Program-made: the position numbers and the translations under genes
The notes under the pieces: model-generated
The model's input: the letters and a program-made list of their open reading frames with translations, nothing else
What the model was told of the DNA's origin: nothing
Database searches by the model: none
Shown here: piece by piece, positions 29,925 to 37,200 of the stretch
Layout of the letters: the number at the start of each line of letters is the position of its first letter
Position numbering within the stretch: position 1 is the stretch's first letter
From: an uncultured Williamsia sp.
GTDB taxonomy: Bacteria; Actinomycetota; Actinomycetes; Mycobacteriales; Mycobacteriaceae
Direction: 5' to 3'
DNA length: 64,000 nt
Assembly: GCF_947494875.1 (NCBI RefSeq)
Contig: NZ_CANLWM010000001.1
Span: forward strand, 124,001-188,000

Positions 29925-30866
29925 TCAGGACCGCGTGTGTCGGTCCAGCCACGCCAGCACCCGGTCGGGGTGACGCTGGAAATGCAGGTAGCCGTCCCAT
30001 CGGCGTGTCGTTCCGTCGATCCAGAACAGCTCCTTGTCGGAGGTCCCGACGGCGTCGTGAATCGCCTGTACGTCGTCAGGCCTGGTCATCACATCGTCTC
30101 TGACCTGGTACATCAGGGTCGGTGGTCGGACGCTGCGTGCGGCCTCGACAGGTGAGAGGTCTGCCAACGTGAACCCGGCCCGCAGTTGGACCAGTCTGTC
30201 GAGCTCGATCATGTTCTGGATCGGGACACCGCGACGCTCGAGGGTGCGTCGCAGGACCTGTGCGGGAGACAGCGGCTGGCAGGCGACGACGCACCTCACC
30301 TGGTCGAATTCGTCCGGGGCTTGCGACATCGCGAAGAACGCTGCGTTGGCACCGAGGCATCGCGTCACGAGCGCGACGGGGATGGTCGGACGCGGGCTCC
30401 GCGACCGCACGAATCTCAGCGCTCCTCGCACGTCCCGGGCCTCGAACCGTCCGCTGCTCGTCACCCCACCGTTGGCCGCACCGCTCCAGCCGGAGTTCCG
30501 GAGGTCGAAGGCGAGTACTTCGTACCCAGCGTCGTGCAGGACGCGGATGTCAGGCAGGAAGTCAACGGCGATGTCGTTGCCGGTCTCGGCGTGGATCGCC
30601 CGCCACGGTTCTTGATCCGCCGGCAGCCCCGTCCTGCTGAATCCGCGTGGATGGGTGGCGATCACGGTGGCCCTCGGCGAGCTCGCCGGGACGAACCACC
30701 CTTCGAGCGCAACACCGTCGGTCGCCGGGAAGACGACCTCCTCGAACGCGAGGCCCACACTCGCAGGTGAGCCGAGGACCGGTGCGCGCATGGTGGTGGT
30801 GAAGCGCGCGGCGATCTCCCCGAGCAGGGCCGTCGTCGCGGCAGGCGATGCCGGCGGGTCGGTCAT
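29925..30866 (-). CDS. Alpha/beta hydrolase with cysteine nucleophile
   Basis: The 313-residue alpha/beta hydrolase has strand-turn segments GVALEGWFVPAS, VIATHPRGFSR (oxyanion region) and FDLRNSGWSG. The nucleophile elbow, normally G-x-S-x-G, reads TRCLGAN with C170 in the Ser position; the acid is probably D257/D258 (VRDDVM) and the base H295 (YLHFQRH). Cys nucleophiles occur in dienelactone hydrolases and in some acyl-processing enzymes. The gene is divergent from the ATP-grasp/papain-like pair and separated from it by 181 nt. Substrate unknown. Confidence 0.85.
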   Translation of the reverse strand: MTDPPASPAATTALLGEIAARFTTTMRAPVLGSPASVGLAFEEVVFPATDGVALEGWFVPASSPRATVIATHPRGFSRTGLPADQEPWRAIHAETGNDIAVDFLPDIRVLHDAGYEVLAFDLRNSGWSGAANGGVTSSGRFEARDVRGALRFVRSRSPRPTIPVALVTRCLGANAAFFAMSQAPDEFDQVRCVVACQPLSPAQVLRRTLERRGVPIQNMIELDRLVQLRAGFTLADLSPVEAARSVRPPTLMYQVRDDVMTRPDDVQAIHDAVGTSDKELFWIDGTTRRWDGYLHFQRHPDRVLAWLDRHTRS

Positions 30867-31047
30867 ACGACCAGTGTCCCGCGACGCGGGGGGCGAGGGT
30901 GTCGACGCCGGGCGAGTCGTGGCCGCCCGGCAGAACAGGGACCTGCCTGAACAGGCCCTCTGAGCGGTCCGAACTAGGTGCCTGCGTGCGTCATCTGTAC
31001 CGTTGGCGGGGCTCGACCCCCTACCGCTCGACGGGAAGGAGACAGGC

Positions 31048-32337
31048 ATGACACAGACGCAGACCCAGTCGGCGACGCAGTCACAGACACAGGTGCAGAC
31101 CTCGGGACGCAGGGTCCCGAAGAACCCCGACAAGGGATATGTCGCACTCCTCGGATGGAGCCTCGCCGCAGTCGAGGCGCTCGACGCATTCGACCGCCGG
31201 TACGTGGTGGTCGCGCCCGAATGGGCACGCGAGTACTGCGAACAGCACGAGATCCCGTACCTCCCCTGGGACTTCGAACGTCTCAACGACAGGTCACTCG
31301 AGATCGCGGAGACGTTGCGGGACATGGGTGTCGACGTGTCGATCCCGCTCTACGAGGAGACCGTCGAGTGGGCTGGCGCGATCAACTCCGTCCTACTGGA
31401 CAACCCGCGCCTGTTCGGTCAGGCGATGCTGTTGCGCGACAAGGCGTTGATGAAGCGGCGGGCCCAGCTCGGTGGCATCCGCGTCGGCATCTTCGAGGAG
31501 GCGCACGACCGCGAGGACGTCATCCGTTTTCTCCGTCGCGTGAACCAGACGCTGCTCAAGCTCGACGGCGACCCGAACGACCCGATCCACCTGAAGGCGT
31601 TCGACAAGGCCGGTTGCCTCGGCCACCGCGTGATCCGCACTCCCGACGAGGTCGACTCGATCCCGGACGAGGAGTTCCCGGTGCTCATGGAGTCGCACCT
31701 GGACGGGTGGGAGTTCGCCGTCGAAGCGTGGATCCACGACGGGAAGGTCAAGTTCCTCAACATCTCCGAGTACGTGACGCTCGGGTACTCGGTGTTCGTG
31801 CCGGCGACGCCGGAGCTGGAGAAGTACCGGCCGGCGATCACCGCGCAGATCGAGAAGCTCATCAAGGCTTTCGACATCGAGTTCGGGTTCATCCATCCCG
31901 AGTACTTCGTCACCAGTGACGGTGAGATGTACTTCGGCGAGGTCGCCTACCGCCCACCGGGTTTCAAGGTGTTCGAGCTCCTCGAGCGGGCGTACGGGTT
32001 CAACGCCTACCAGGGGCTCGCGTTGGCCTTCGACCCGAAGACCACCACGGAGGAGATCGACGCCTTCTTCCCGAAGGAGGTCGTCGACGCGACGGGCGTC
32101 GCCGGATGCTTCGGCGTGTATCCCCGTCGGCGCGTCGTCAGTTCGCTGGAGATCCCCGCCGAGACGGCCGAACACGACTACTACGAGACGAACGACCTGG
32201 CACCGCCGTTGGAGCAGACGGTGACCAAGCGGACCGCGTTCGGGACGCACTGGGGACTGCTGTACTTCTTCGGTGACGACCCCGTCCGGATGCGAGACCT
32301 GTTGAAGCACCAGGAAGAACTGGACTTCTACGTGTGA
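31048..32337 (+). CDS. ATP-grasp ligase-like protein
   Basis: The 429-residue protein has GGAAGGA ahead of ATG 31048. The first 20 residues are an odd Gln/Thr/Ser repeat tail. The rest is an ATP-grasp fold: an N-terminal domain (VALLGWSLAAVEAL), lid and linker Lys (LLKLDGDPNDPIHLKAF), and the Mg/ATP site residues in FAVEAWIHDGKVKFLNISEY and MYFGEVAYRPPG. Members join a carboxylate to an amine through an acyl-phosphate. Its stop overlaps the next start by 4 nt (GTGA), so it is co-translated with a papain-like protein. Substrate unknown. Confidence 0.85.
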   Translation: MTQTQTQSATQSQTQVQTSGRRVPKNPDKGYVALLGWSLAAVEALDAFDRRYVVVAPEWAREYCEQHEIPYLPWDFERLNDRSLEIAETLRDMGVDVSIPLYEETVEWAGAINSVLLDNPRLFGQAMLLRDKALMKRRAQLGGIRVGIFEEAHDREDVIRFLRRVNQTLLKLDGDPNDPIHLKAFDKAGCLGHRVIRTPDEVDSIPDEEFPVLMESHLDGWEFAVEAWIHDGKVKFLNISEYVTLGYSVFVPATPELEKYRPAITAQIEKLIKAFDIEFGFIHPEYFVTSDGEMYFGEVAYRPPGFKVFELLERAYGFNAYQGLALAFDPKTTTEEIDAFFPKEVVDATGVAGCFGVYPRRRVVSSLEIPAETAEHDYYETNDLAPPLEQTVTKRTAFGTHWGLLYFFGDDPVRMRDLLKHQEELDFYV

Positions 32338-34397
32338 AGCAGGAACTCGGTACGGCCGACCGCGGCCCGACGCAGTCGATGGACCCCGTCGTGGACGAGG
32401 GATCGACTGCGCCCGATCCTGCGCTGACGACGCGTCTCGCCCAGCTCGATCACGCGACCGCTGCACTGCACGACGCACCGGAGTTCTCCAAGAGCACCAA
32501 GGTGCGACGGGTTCTCGACGCGCTCACCCGCGTCCTGACGCAGAAGGGCGGGTGCGCGGCGGTCCGCGAGCGCGCCGGGGCGTTGGAGGAGGCGGGACTG
32601 TTCGCGGGCACCGACTGGGCCCAGCCCGACATCCTGGTCCCCGCGATCGTCGGCTCCAGCCTGCGCAGCGGCCACGCCGACACCGTGGCCCTGGAGGCCG
32701 CGAGCGAGTTGCGGCTCGTCGCCGTGGCAGCCGGTGACATGACGCACCCCGCCGTCGACGCCGACGACGCGCGACGGTTCCTGTCGCAGGTTCTCGCGAT
32801 GAACCTCGAGGTGCTGTTCACGCCGCCGTCGGAGGCCGAGCGCGTTCGCCTCGGACGTACCGCGTACCTCATCCGCGATCTCTTCGGCTACGTCGCCGAG
32901 CAGATCGGCTACGACAGCGTCCTCGACGAACTGGTCGAGGAGATCTGGCGCATCCTGCGACAGCGCCCGATCCAGGTCGAGCAGGTGACCGCGATGGTCA
33001 CCCGCATCGCGATCTACCGCGACGACCCCGACGTCGACCTCGGGTCGTCGGGGCAGGGGCTGGACCGCCTCATCACCGCACTCTTCGGGACCACCGAGGC
33101 GTGTCGGGAGGATCCCGGCGTCGACGTCTACCGGTCGCGGCTGGAGGTGATGGACGCCGGCGGGCTGCAGTTCGAGGCCGGCGGGTTCGCTCGCGCCATG
33201 CACGACACCGGCCTGGTGTCGCCGTACCACGCGACGCTGCTGCGCTACCTGGTCGAGACGAATCCGCATCTGCTGCCCGAGGCGCTCGGCCTGTCGGACG
33301 TGGGTCGTACGTCGCTGCAACGCTTCCCGGATCTCGTCTACCGCCTTGTCGACGTCGCCGTGCACCCGGAGACCGCCCAGTGCATCTATGGTCTCGCCCT
33401 CATGCTCGACCGCGGCATCCTCCACCAGCCGCCGATCGTCCCGTCGCTCTGGCGGCAGATCGCGCTCCCGCTGTCGTCCGCGTCGTCGGAACGGCTGCGG
33501 CTGGCCTTCGGTGACGCCCCCGTCCCGTCGGCACGGCTGCTCGCGGGGATCCTGTCGATGCTGGGCCAGCCGCTGGGCGTCGGGCAGGGCGACAACCCGA
33601 CGTGCCAGTCGGCGCGCGCACTGTCGATGTGGGCCTACAACGATCCCGACTACCTGCTCCAGATGGTGGTGTGGGCGGCCCGCGACGACGAGGTCGTCAT
33701 GCACTTCGAGGGCGCGGCGCTGTCGTCTACGGCGAGCGAGAGCGGCGTCGCCACCAGCGATCCCATCGATCTCGACCCGGTGTCGCTACTGCTGGTACCG
33801 CATCTCGACCGGATCTACGCCGAGATGGTCCGGCGATGCGCCGGGCGTGACGGTGACCCGCACCGCTGGGTGAACCCGGAGTTCCACGGCTGGTGGTCGT
33901 GGCGGGAGTTCCACATCGACGTCGACGTGGAGACCGGCAACCTGATCGACCTCGACGGGTTTCTGCGCCAGTTCCACGCGTCGTACCACCCCGCCTACAA
34001 CGGTGATCAGCCGCTGATCCACCCGCAGCCGGCGGGCGTCGCGGTCACCGACAGCGCCGCCCGGTACGTCGGGTGGCACGCGATCACGATCCTGCGCGTC
34101 GCCGCCGACCCGGACGGCGTCATGCGGGTCTACTTCTTCAACCCCAACAACGACAGCGGGCAGGACTGGGGCGACGGCGTCGTCGTGGGCACCGCGGGCA
34201 ACGGTGAACGCCACGGAGAGGGGTCCCTGCCCTTCGACCAGTTCGCGTCGCGGCTGTACATCTTCCACGCAGACCCGCTGGAGAACGGCCGACCCGACGA
34301 CGTCCCCGCCGAGGACATCGACCGCATCGTCGGCTACATCCGTCGCAGCTGGGGCACCGACCGCATGCCCGACCCCGCTCCGTCGGCGGAGGATTGA
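32334..34397 (+). CDS. Large protein with papain-like (clan CA) catalytic residues
   Basis: The 687-residue protein starts at GTG 32334 inside the ATP-grasp stop. Residues 1-400 are mostly helical and unrecognised. Residues 410-650 carry a papain-like pattern: Q418-x5-C424 (GQGDNPTC) gives the oxyanion Gln and nucleophile, H582 (VGWHAITI) the base, and N603 or N605/N606 (YFFNPNNDSG) the orienting residue. Thus a cysteine peptidase, amidase or transglutaminase-like activity is inferred. No signal peptide, so it acts in the cytoplasm with its ATP-grasp partner. The assignment rests on motifs only. Confidence 0.72.
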   Translation: MKQELGTADRGPTQSMDPVVDEGSTAPDPALTTRLAQLDHATAALHDAPEFSKSTKVRRVLDALTRVLTQKGGCAAVRERAGALEEAGLFAGTDWAQPDILVPAIVGSSLRSGHADTVALEAASELRLVAVAAGDMTHPAVDADDARRFLSQVLAMNLEVLFTPPSEAERVRLGRTAYLIRDLFGYVAEQIGYDSVLDELVEEIWRILRQRPIQVEQVTAMVTRIAIYRDDPDVDLGSSGQGLDRLITALFGTTEACREDPGVDVYRSRLEVMDAGGLQFEAGGFARAMHDTGLVSPYHATLLRYLVETNPHLLPEALGLSDVGRTSLQRFPDLVYRLVDVAVHPETAQCIYGLALMLDRGILHQPPIVPSLWRQIALPLSSASSERLRLAFGDAPVPSARLLAGILSMLGQPLGVGQGDNPTCQSARALSMWAYNDPDYLLQMVVWAARDDEVVMHFEGAALSSTASESGVATSDPIDLDPVSLLLVPHLDRIYAEMVRRCAGRDGDPHRWVNPEFHGWWSWREFHIDVDVETGNLIDLDGFLRQFHASYHPAYNGDQPLIHPQPAGVAVTDSAARYVGWHAITILRVAADPDGVMRVYFFNPNNDSGQDWGDGVVVGTAGNGERHGEGSLPFDQFASRLYIFHADPLENGRPDDVPAEDIDRIVGYIRRSWGTDRMPDPAPSAED

Positions 34398-35643: not shown

Positions 35644-36861
35644 TCAGCGCCGGCGTCGACGTTGCCGCACCGGAGGGACGGAGAGCGTCGGCACCGATCG
35701 CTTCATGTACCGGTCGAACTGGGGAACCGTGAACGCGGCGTAACCGTGATTCGGGGTGTAGAGAAGTCCCTTCTCGATCAACACAGAGCGCGTCGGAGCG
35801 CATTGCTGCGACGTCCGATCCAGCAGTCGGGCAACGTCACCCGCGAGCTGGGGCTCGGGGCCGAGTTCAGCCATCGCCCGGAGGTATGCCTGCTCCAGTT
35901 CGGTGGTTCGATCTTTCCGGACACGGAAGAAGCTGCTGTCCAGCTTCTCCTCGTAGACACCTTGCGCTGCCTCCACGTCGTCACGTGTGATCCGGCCGTC
36001 GGACGCGATCAGCCACACGGCATATCCGAGTTCTTGGAGGAAGTAGGGGTACCGCCCTGTGATCTCCCCGGCGAGTTCGAGCGCGTCCGCGTCGAAGATC
36101 GCACCCTCTTCCGAGGCCGGTTCGCGGAGCGCCGTCGCGGCCTCGTCGTGCGAGAGGATCCCGATCTCAGGGAACTTGAACAGGCGTTCGGCGTACGACT
36201 TCGCCTCGCCGGCCAGCTCCGCGATCTGCGGTAGCCCTGCCCCGACCATCGTTATCGGTAGCTCGCGCTGGACTGTCTTGTGGAGCGCGGCCACGAGTGC
36301 TTCCAGCTGCTGCTTGTGCAGGAATTGGATCTCATCGAGCAGCAGCACGAGACCCGCCTCATGCTCGCGCGCCGCCTCACCGAGTGCGACGACGAGGTCC
36401 GTGAGATCCGACGTCAAATCACCCGAGTCGCCGACTCCCTCCTCCGCGCCCACATCCAGACCCGCGGTGATGCGACCGTCGGGGTCGATGTTGATCGTGA
36501 AAGACCGGATGACAGCGGCTGCTCGTCGTGCCCTGTCGGTCCAGCGCGCCTTCGGCGACATCGACAGGAGTGCTGAGCGGAACTCGCGGGCAAGCTGCCG
36601 ACGAAAATCGTCATCGTCGTGTTTGCTGACCTCGATCTCGACGATCGCCCATTTCCGCATCTCGGCCTTTTTGCGAAACTCACGCAACAGCACCGTTTTC
36701 CCGACGCCTCGCAAGCCCGTCACGATCATCGACTGTTCGGTCCGACCGCGCTCCAACCGTGCCAGCAACAGATCGAAGGACTGTTGCTGATCTTCGCGCC
36801 CGACCATCACCGGAGGAGTGGCCCCGGCGTTCGGTGTGTAGGGATTGGACAACGCATCCAT
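35644..36861 (-). CDS. STAND/Orc-like AAA ATPase with C-terminal winged helix
   Basis: The 405-residue ATPase has Walker A GLRGVGKT (residues 49-56), Walker B LVLLLDEIQF (D176, E177) and sensor-like ITMVGAGLPQ, the layout of archaeal-type or Orc1-like AAA proteins. The last 100 residues look like a winged-helix module (LAGDVARLLDRTSQQCAPTR) ending in an Arg-rich tail. No partner gene is adjacent. It is less GC-biased than its neighbours and sits beside tRNA genes, possible signs of acquisition. The promoter is unusual (see 36865-36911). Function unknown; DNA-binding or signalling roles are plausible. Confidence 0.85.
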   Translation of the reverse strand: MDALSNPYTPNAGATPPVMVGREDQQQSFDLLLARLERGRTEQSMIVTGLRGVGKTVLLREFRKKAEMRKWAIVEIEVSKHDDDDFRRQLAREFRSALLSMSPKARWTDRARRAAAVIRSFTINIDPDGRITAGLDVGAEEGVGDSGDLTSDLTDLVVALGEAAREHEAGLVLLLDEIQFLHKQQLEALVAALHKTVQRELPITMVGAGLPQIAELAGEAKSYAERLFKFPEIGILSHDEAATALREPASEEGAIFDADALELAGEITGRYPYFLQELGYAVWLIASDGRITRDDVEAAQGVYEEKLDSSFFRVRKDRTTELEQAYLRAMAELGPEPQLAGDVARLLDRTSQQCAPTRSVLIEKGLLYTPNHGYAAFTVPQFDRYMKRSVPTLSVPPVRQRRRRR

Positions 36862-37001: not shown

Positions 37002-37005
37002 GGTG

Positions 37006-37078
37006 TGCGCCCGAAGGGATTCGAACCCCTAACCTTCTGATCCGTAGTCAGATGCTCTATCCGTTGAGCTACGGGCGC
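37006..37078 (-). tRNA. tRNA-Arg(ACG)
   Basis: 73 nt. The acceptor GCGCCCG pairs with CGGGCGC and the discriminator is A. The anticodon stem TCTGA/TCAGA encloses CTACGGA, giving anticodon ACG, which TadA converts to ICG. The T-arm is AGGGGTTCGAATCCCTT. No CCA is encoded. Confidence 0.96.
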
Positions 37079-37111
37079 AGGTATTCAGTTGTCGTAAGGC
37101 CGGTGCCTCGG

Positions 37112-37200
37112 CGGAGGCGAGAGGATTCGAACCTCCGGTCCCGTTTTAGCGGGACAATTCATTAGCAGTGAATCCCATTCGGCCGCTCTGGCACGCCTCC
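37112..37200 (-). tRNA. tRNA-Ser(GCU)
   Basis: 89-nt class II tRNA with a long variable arm. The acceptor GGAGGCG pairs with CGCCTCC and the discriminator is G. The anticodon loop CTGCTAA in stem ATTCA/TGAAT gives anticodon GCU (AGC/AGU codons). It precedes tRNA-Arg by 33 nt on the same strand. Confidence 0.96.

Follow-up and report, generated by a model that had tools for sequence, protein, structure and literature searches.

An ATP-grasp-like ligase and a papain-like protein kept together across phyla point to an undescribed two-enzyme system

Introduction

What do an ATP-grasp-like ligase and a papain-like protein do together when their genes overlap? This question is raised by a locus of an uncultured Williamsia sp. 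that we analysed within a stretch of 64,000 nucleotides (contig NZ_CANLWM010000001.1, positions 124,001 to 188,000 of the forward strand), hereafter the window, whose own numbering is used below. The locus consists of the genes for a 429-aa ATP-grasp-like carboxylate-amine ligase (LIG; 31048..32337, + strand) and a 687-aa protein (PAP; 32334..34397, + strand), which a preliminary description made from the sequence alone had regarded as a functional pair. Here we show that LIG and PAP are kept together across phyla with their catalytic residues intact, and the evidence points to an undescribed two-enzyme system. Our preferred reading, to which we give an even chance of being correct, is a stress-linked, self-contained two-enzyme amide cycle, in which LIG would form an amide and PAP would open it via a Cys-acyl intermediate, most likely by hydrolysis.

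Results

A survey of gene neighbourhoods had been set beforehand as a possible refutation of the functional pair, and its outcome supports the pair. In a collection of 84,980 species, a PAP relative was encoded in at least 577 of 595 pattern-matched stretches, from which the best 80 were kept. LIG adjoined PAP in each of these 80 best named loci (the LIG of L086 being truncated at a contig end) and in 32/32 short loci L001-L032, where L001 is the window itself and the others come partly from the same genomes. The 80 loci belong to Williamsia, Rhodococcus/Rhodococcoides, Gordonia, Nocardia, Antrihabitans, Pseudonocardia, Amycolatopsis, Saccharopolyspora, Actinophytocola, Haloechinothrix and Streptomyces, plus four halomonads. 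The two genes were co-directional in 129 of 133 distinct pairs; besides the order LIG-PAP, we found PAP-LIG (L165, L167, L191, L192) and divergent arrangements (L154, L157, L160, L163). Clustering of the open reading frames (ORFs) called in the 80 loci recovered PAP in 80 and, with this caller, LIG in 78; among the called ORFs of at least 90 aa, no further gene family occurred in more than 10 loci. Shorter ORFs were not called, and a short carrier protein or graspetide precursor peptide would escape. The LIG/PAP pair is the unit.

For PAP, sequence searches returned no match to any Pfam family at E ≤ 1, to the Pfam clan CA families C1, C39, CHAP, NlpC/P60, BtrH_N and others, or to NCBIfam and PADLOC, and no convincing relative was found among solved structures (best E 0.071). 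The preliminary description had assigned a papain-like site to its C-terminal half on the basis of Q418, C424, H582 and N603/N605/N606. Indeed, each of these six residues is identical in 57/57 PAP relatives (65-93% identity), and all are kept in 20/20 sequences of a wider set (the window plus 19, to ~50% identity), in which 137 of the 687 positions are invariant. PAP has cysteines at positions 74, 257, 350, 424 and 502, of which only C424 is invariant in both sets. The order in papain is Q, Cys, His, Asn, with Cys at the start of a helix and His and Asn by consecutive strands. In the predicted model of PAP, helix 424-436 begins at C424, strand 579-591 holds H582, and N603 comes right after strand 597-602; the evidence drawn from this model is its secondary structure, and segments 420-422 and 606-609 are of low confidence. 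The residue order and the predicted secondary-structure placement agree with a papain-like clan CA site, so that the earlier assignment is supported by residue invariance and by the secondary structure of the model. The model appears to have papain topology and gave weak fold matches to papain-like proteases; NlpC/P60 and C39 were not among the 50 structural matches listed, which carries no weight. Conservation and the model place the putative papain-like domain, with all six residues, at residues 385-650 (33486..34283, + strand), preceded by a region that is predicted to be all-helical (residues 29-384; 32418..33485, + strand). Mean identity is 69% for residues 30-384 versus 83% for the catalytic half.

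This large helical region, together with the fact that the activity of PAP is a prediction, favours a reading in which PAP is neither a hydrolase nor a transferase, its papain-like site acts as a scaffold for binding, and catalysis is left to LIG alone. Since the six site residues are invariant in both sequence sets, we consider this very improbable.

The ATP-grasp assignment of LIG, also made in the preliminary description, is weak by sequence and was borne out by profile comparison and, more tentatively, by fold comparison. LIG scored 24.4 bits against Pfam ATP-grasp_4 (PF13535), under the gathering score of 27, and matched no family in PADLOC. The nearest solved relatives are the L-amino acid ligases BL00235 (3vot) and RizA (4wd3), plus 4dim, and these three were among the top four matches in a fold search with the LIG model, which is itself poor. 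The ATP/metal residues of ATP-grasp enzymes are two Lys, a Glu pair and an E-x3-R motif. K132, K183, E285, E298 and R302 of LIG are invariant in 29/29 sequences (the two lysines were assigned by eye), and its E-x3-R end aligns with 3vot and 4wd3. Mean column identity of LIG is 87%. As far as these sequence searches reach, PAP is outside every curated family searched and LIG is under threshold.

Co-presence extends to whole genomes. PAP was found in 61 of 251 sampled genomes of the window's family, which we take to be the Mycobacteriaceae, and in 3 of 296 of its phylum, among them the genome of the window and another from its family. For the genome of the Litchfieldella xinjiangensis locus L107 (G538), the counts were 99 of 151 in its family, presumably the halomonad family, and 8 of 299 in its phylum. 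LIG (E ≤ 1e-60) was present in 61/251 and 98/151 genomes of the two families. With the LIG and PAP genome draws per family treated as identical, as the listed handles indicate, presence of the two was concordant in 249/251 genomes of the window's family (60 both, 189 neither) and in 150/151 of the halomonad family (98 both, 52 neither). All three discordant genomes have partial matches: G199 (PAP, 124 residues), G229 (LIG, 263 positions) and G945 (PAP, 62 positions). The LIG-like match of G229 (G229:C1:819398-820186) covers the N-terminal 263 positions alone, in a PAP-less genome of 9.7 Mb. G969, G950 and G845 also have PAP or LIG matches that are split or truncated, which look like copies in decay or badly assembled ones. 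The tree distances of the two proteins were correlated (r = 0.92, 133 pairs), and PAP evolves faster by a factor of 2.2. The pruned PAP tree places L188, a type-1 sequence from a halomonad, next to the main actinobacterial clade and puts L170, from the window's family, outside that clade, which suggests transfer between phyla.

The halomonad family has a second LIG type (LIG2, 787-801 bits) and a second PAP type. PAP1 without LIG1 was found in eight genomes (G871, G890, G912, G924, G928, G961, G967 and G977), all of which have LIG2, versus 11 of 90 genomes with LIG1 (Fisher 5e-7; the counts were read by eye, the test ignores relatedness, and the eight genomes are related and may stand for few losses). 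LIG2 lies beside PAP2 in G871, G924 and G977, and no PAP was found in the 20-kb stretch around LIG2 in the other five. Therefore, linkage can break while co-presence holds. Three observations weigh against a strict one-to-one partnership: PAP occurred without LIG in 8 of 20 loci examined, G871 has three PAP and one LIG, and eight genomes have two LIG and one PAP.

These imbalances bear on two further readings. In a make-and-transfer biosynthesis, LIG would make an acyl or aminoacyl compound and PAP, as a BtrH-like papain-like acyltransferase, would pass the acyl group to a final acceptor. At the genome level neither gene is kept alone, partial matches aside, as two obligatory steps would predict, and PAP copies without an adjoining LIG could be transferases with other acceptors. 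There is a precedent in the butirosin pathway, where BtrJ and BtrH work together and a carrier protein and a large gene cluster are needed. BtrJ is described as an ATP-grasp enzyme (PMC4431377) and BtrH as a papain-like acyltransferase, the BtrH_N family being papain-like and part of the acyltransferase (PMC10318531), so that this system resembles our pair in combining an ATP-grasp ligase with a papain-like enzyme. However, the acyl donor of BtrH is a carrier protein, whereas none of the called ORFs beside LIG and PAP recurs in more than 10 of the 80 loci (a carrier shorter than 90 aa, as many are, or one encoded at another site would escape), and PAP has no match to BtrH_N. We consider the transfer reading possible but unlikely.

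Alternatively, LIG could tag proteins with an amino acid or a short peptide that PAP would strip off, as a writer and an eraser. The excess of PAP over LIG in some halomonad genomes (as in G871) would fit this, many erasers with few writers being a familiar pattern, and the predicted helical region of about 350 residues could bind proteins. The reverse imbalance exists too, however, in the eight genomes with two LIG and one PAP; the nearest solved relatives of LIG are free-amino-acid ligases; and no carrier or tag protein recurs nearby among the ORFs of at least 90 aa in the 80 loci. Protein tagging of this kind thus appears decidedly improbable.

Papain-like toxins (9l5u, 8ssm) are among the structural neighbours of PAP, which brings up a defence or toxin-immunity pair. 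Neither protein matches PADLOC; for secretion domains, the search covered Pfam. No relative was found in phage records (E ≤ 1) or confirmed in viral contigs, and a phage or viral origin was rejected on the same grounds. Loci of one lineage have flanking genes in common, and the high conservation of LIG and its covariation with PAP likewise speak against defence, which we regard as extremely unlikely. A plasmid origin was rejected as well, the one record in the plasmid collection being a 1.8-Mb Halomonas replicon without annotation there.

The region upstream of LIG suggests a link to stress in some lineages. The motif GTTT-N14-19-GGGTA, given as the SigF consensus of Mycobacterium smegmatis in PMC4694148 and close to the promoters of Streptomyces coelicolor SigB homologues as described in PMC8346170, was found within 330 bases 5' of the LIG match in 19 of 79 loci versus 1 of 839 other ORFs of the same loci. 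The start of the tblastn match, rather than a mapped start codon, served as the reference point for upstream positions, and L086, with its cut LIG, was excluded; the P value of 1e-20 is inflated by relatedness, and five patterns were tried first. In this first trial, the SigB-like pattern was found in 19/79 loci against a shuffle mean of 0.5, a SigE/H-like pattern was slightly raised (6 against a mean of 1.4, with a maximum of 5 in 50 shuffles), and the three other patterns gave 0-1. A stricter form, GGGTA[CT] with a spacer of 13-17, was present in 16/79 loci versus 0/839; the form with one mismatch allowed per box was rejected as too loose (40/79 versus 159/839). The 19 loci are from Nocardia (9), Amycolatopsis (5), Streptomyces (4) and Antrihabitans (1), i.e. 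from 4 of the 11 actinobacterial genera named, and the Nocardia sites lie at various positions between -143 and -220 and have differing spacer sequences. Of the 32 short loci, 2 also contain the motif. It was found neither in the Williamsia, Rhodococcus and Gordonia loci nor anywhere in the window, nor in 47 further loci, 19 of which include the full 330 bases. A regulatory link of a SigB/SigF-type promoter to the pair is supported by these motif counts for some lineages, and the pair is probably switched on by a stress sigma factor of the SigB/SigF family in several actinobacterial genera.

In the window, a different element, TCTGTAC[CG]GT, lies 5' of LIG at ~30993-31003; it is common to the window, L033, L036 and L045 and may be an extended -10 promoter box. 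LIG starts with ATG at 31048, preceded by GGAAGGAG. Its weakly conserved N-terminal tail (residues 1-24; 31048..31119, + strand) is a low-complexity, Thr/Gln-rich segment (MTQTQTQSATQSQTQVQTSG) that falls outside the conserved part, conservation beginning at about residue 25. The 3' end of LIG reads gac ttc tac gtg tga, and PAP starts with GTG at 32334, which confirms the GTGA start/stop overlap noted earlier (32334..32337, + strand). The overlap recurs in the Williamsia and Rhodococcus relatives L033-L045 and L090, since the PAP match starts there at the same base where the LIG match stops, and translational coupling of the two genes is probable. The window's nearest named relatives are Williamsia spp., the PAP of W. 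serinedens being 93% identical, and the window's genome has a single PAP match. The 19-residue Kyte-Doolittle means reach maxima of 1.29 for LIG and 1.08 for PAP, below the membrane-helix level; because neither protein has a stretch as hydrophobic as a membrane helix, both are probably cytosolic.

The genes flanking the pair do not belong to it. The preliminary description had noted an FMN reductase and a divergent Cys-type hydrolase at its flanks; these two neighbours, as well as a kinase and an AAA ATPase, were rejected as parts of the system, none of them occurring in more than 10 of the 80 loci. The FMN reductase is also inconstant within the genus. Of four further genomes, one has it next to PAP, one has a copy of 50% identity at another place and two lack it, one of these two also having no LIG/PAP pair. 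The hydrolase (29925-30806, - strand) is an alpha/beta hydrolase (Pfam Hydrolase_4) with Cys in place of the nucleophile serine (VTRCLGAN) and is not among the families recurring with LIG/PAP. On the other side, an AAA_16-type ATPase (35644-36861, - strand) with weak similarity to BrxD-like ATPases lies near a tRNA-Arg/tRNA-Ser pair (37005-37200). In the halomonad loci L179, L181, L183, L185, L187, L188 and L189, PAP1 is followed by genes for an FtsJ/S4 methyltransferase and an MscS-type channel (domain names taken from L181), and this arrangement is a lineage-specific context. Lone PAP and lone LIG copies had ABC and TRAP transporters, LrgAB, NYN, TelA, an FtsJ-type methyltransferase, an MscS-type channel, a class-III aminotransferase and others as neighbours; as clues to a pathway these were rejected, none being recurrent enough.

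Two further candidates were discarded. A riboswitch or other RNA was rejected, only tRNA and SRP RNA being detected at gathering scores in the window and eight loci. A link to ectoine was considered, ectoine synthase being present in 61/61 genomes with PAP and in 154/190 without it (by-eye matching, Fisher 3e-5); it was set aside and not used as evidence because lineage and genome size confound it (10 of 20 listed genomes without ectoine synthase are under 3 Mb) and because most PAP-less genomes also have the enzyme. Ectoine synthase is also missing from G018, the sampled member of the window's genus that has no LIG/PAP pair.

Discussion

How might the two proteins work together? ATP-grasp ligases are described as forming amides through an acyl phosphate (PMC6376114). 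In the amide cycle that we prefer, LIG would use ATP to turn a carboxylate into an acyl phosphate, which it would couple with an amine to yield a small amide or a dipeptide. That no pathway or companion gene travels with the pair suggests common metabolites as substrates. C424 of PAP would then attack the amide made by LIG to form a thioester, assisted by H582 and by N603 or a neighbour, with Q418 in the oxyanion hole, and would most likely release the acyl group to water, the main rival being its transfer to a second acceptor. The papain-type site of PAP and the absence of any further travelling gene make the amide of LIG its most likely target.

A precedent is glutathionylspermidine synthetase/amidase (GspSA), in which a synthetase acting via an acyl phosphate is combined with a CHAP-type cysteine amidase that undoes the amide, as described in PMC6272389. 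Both systems unite a ligase with a papain-like amidase, in our case a predicted one. However, GspSA is one fused protein, whereas LIG and PAP have a gene each, both in the window and in the other loci read; its amidase is of the CHAP type, whereas PAP has no Pfam CHAP match, and LIG is nearest to L-amino acid ligases instead. To our knowledge, glutathione is generally absent from these actinobacteria. We propose that the pair works like GspSA by analogy, yet is not a member of the GspSA family.

Other known systems also differ from the pair. LIG shares 8-10% identity with RizA and BL00235 in fold alignment, and we know of no papain-like partner of either enzyme. The Anbu operon combines an ATP-grasp protein with a transglutaminase-like enzyme and is described as a conserved operon of unresolved function (PMC6376114). 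It has four genes (ATP-grasp, alphaE, transglutaminase-like and Anbu), including one for a proteasome-like subunit, whereas no third gene recurs beside LIG and PAP among the called ORFs. From calpain, staphopain and C1B-type proteases, PAP differs in having no sequence match to them, a probably cytosolic location and a fixed ligase partner. Full-text searches, several of them directed at analogues or promoters, found no literature on the LIG/PAP pair, most subscription journals being outside their scope.

A bolder idea, which we consider possible but unlikely, is an undescribed bacterial conjugation system: under stress, LIG could mark a common metabolite or proteins with a new amide, and PAP, as a new family of papain-like enzymes multiplied in some proteobacteria, could erase this mark or pass it on.

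With no family name in the libraries searched, PAP would represent a new papain-like family, found in soil actinobacteria and halophilic proteobacteria. This family would carry a built-in clue to its substrate, because its ligase probably makes that substrate. The pair seems to do without further linked genes, so that one can look for its product as a new mass upon expression of the two genes, and the stress promoter hints at the condition in which to look for it.

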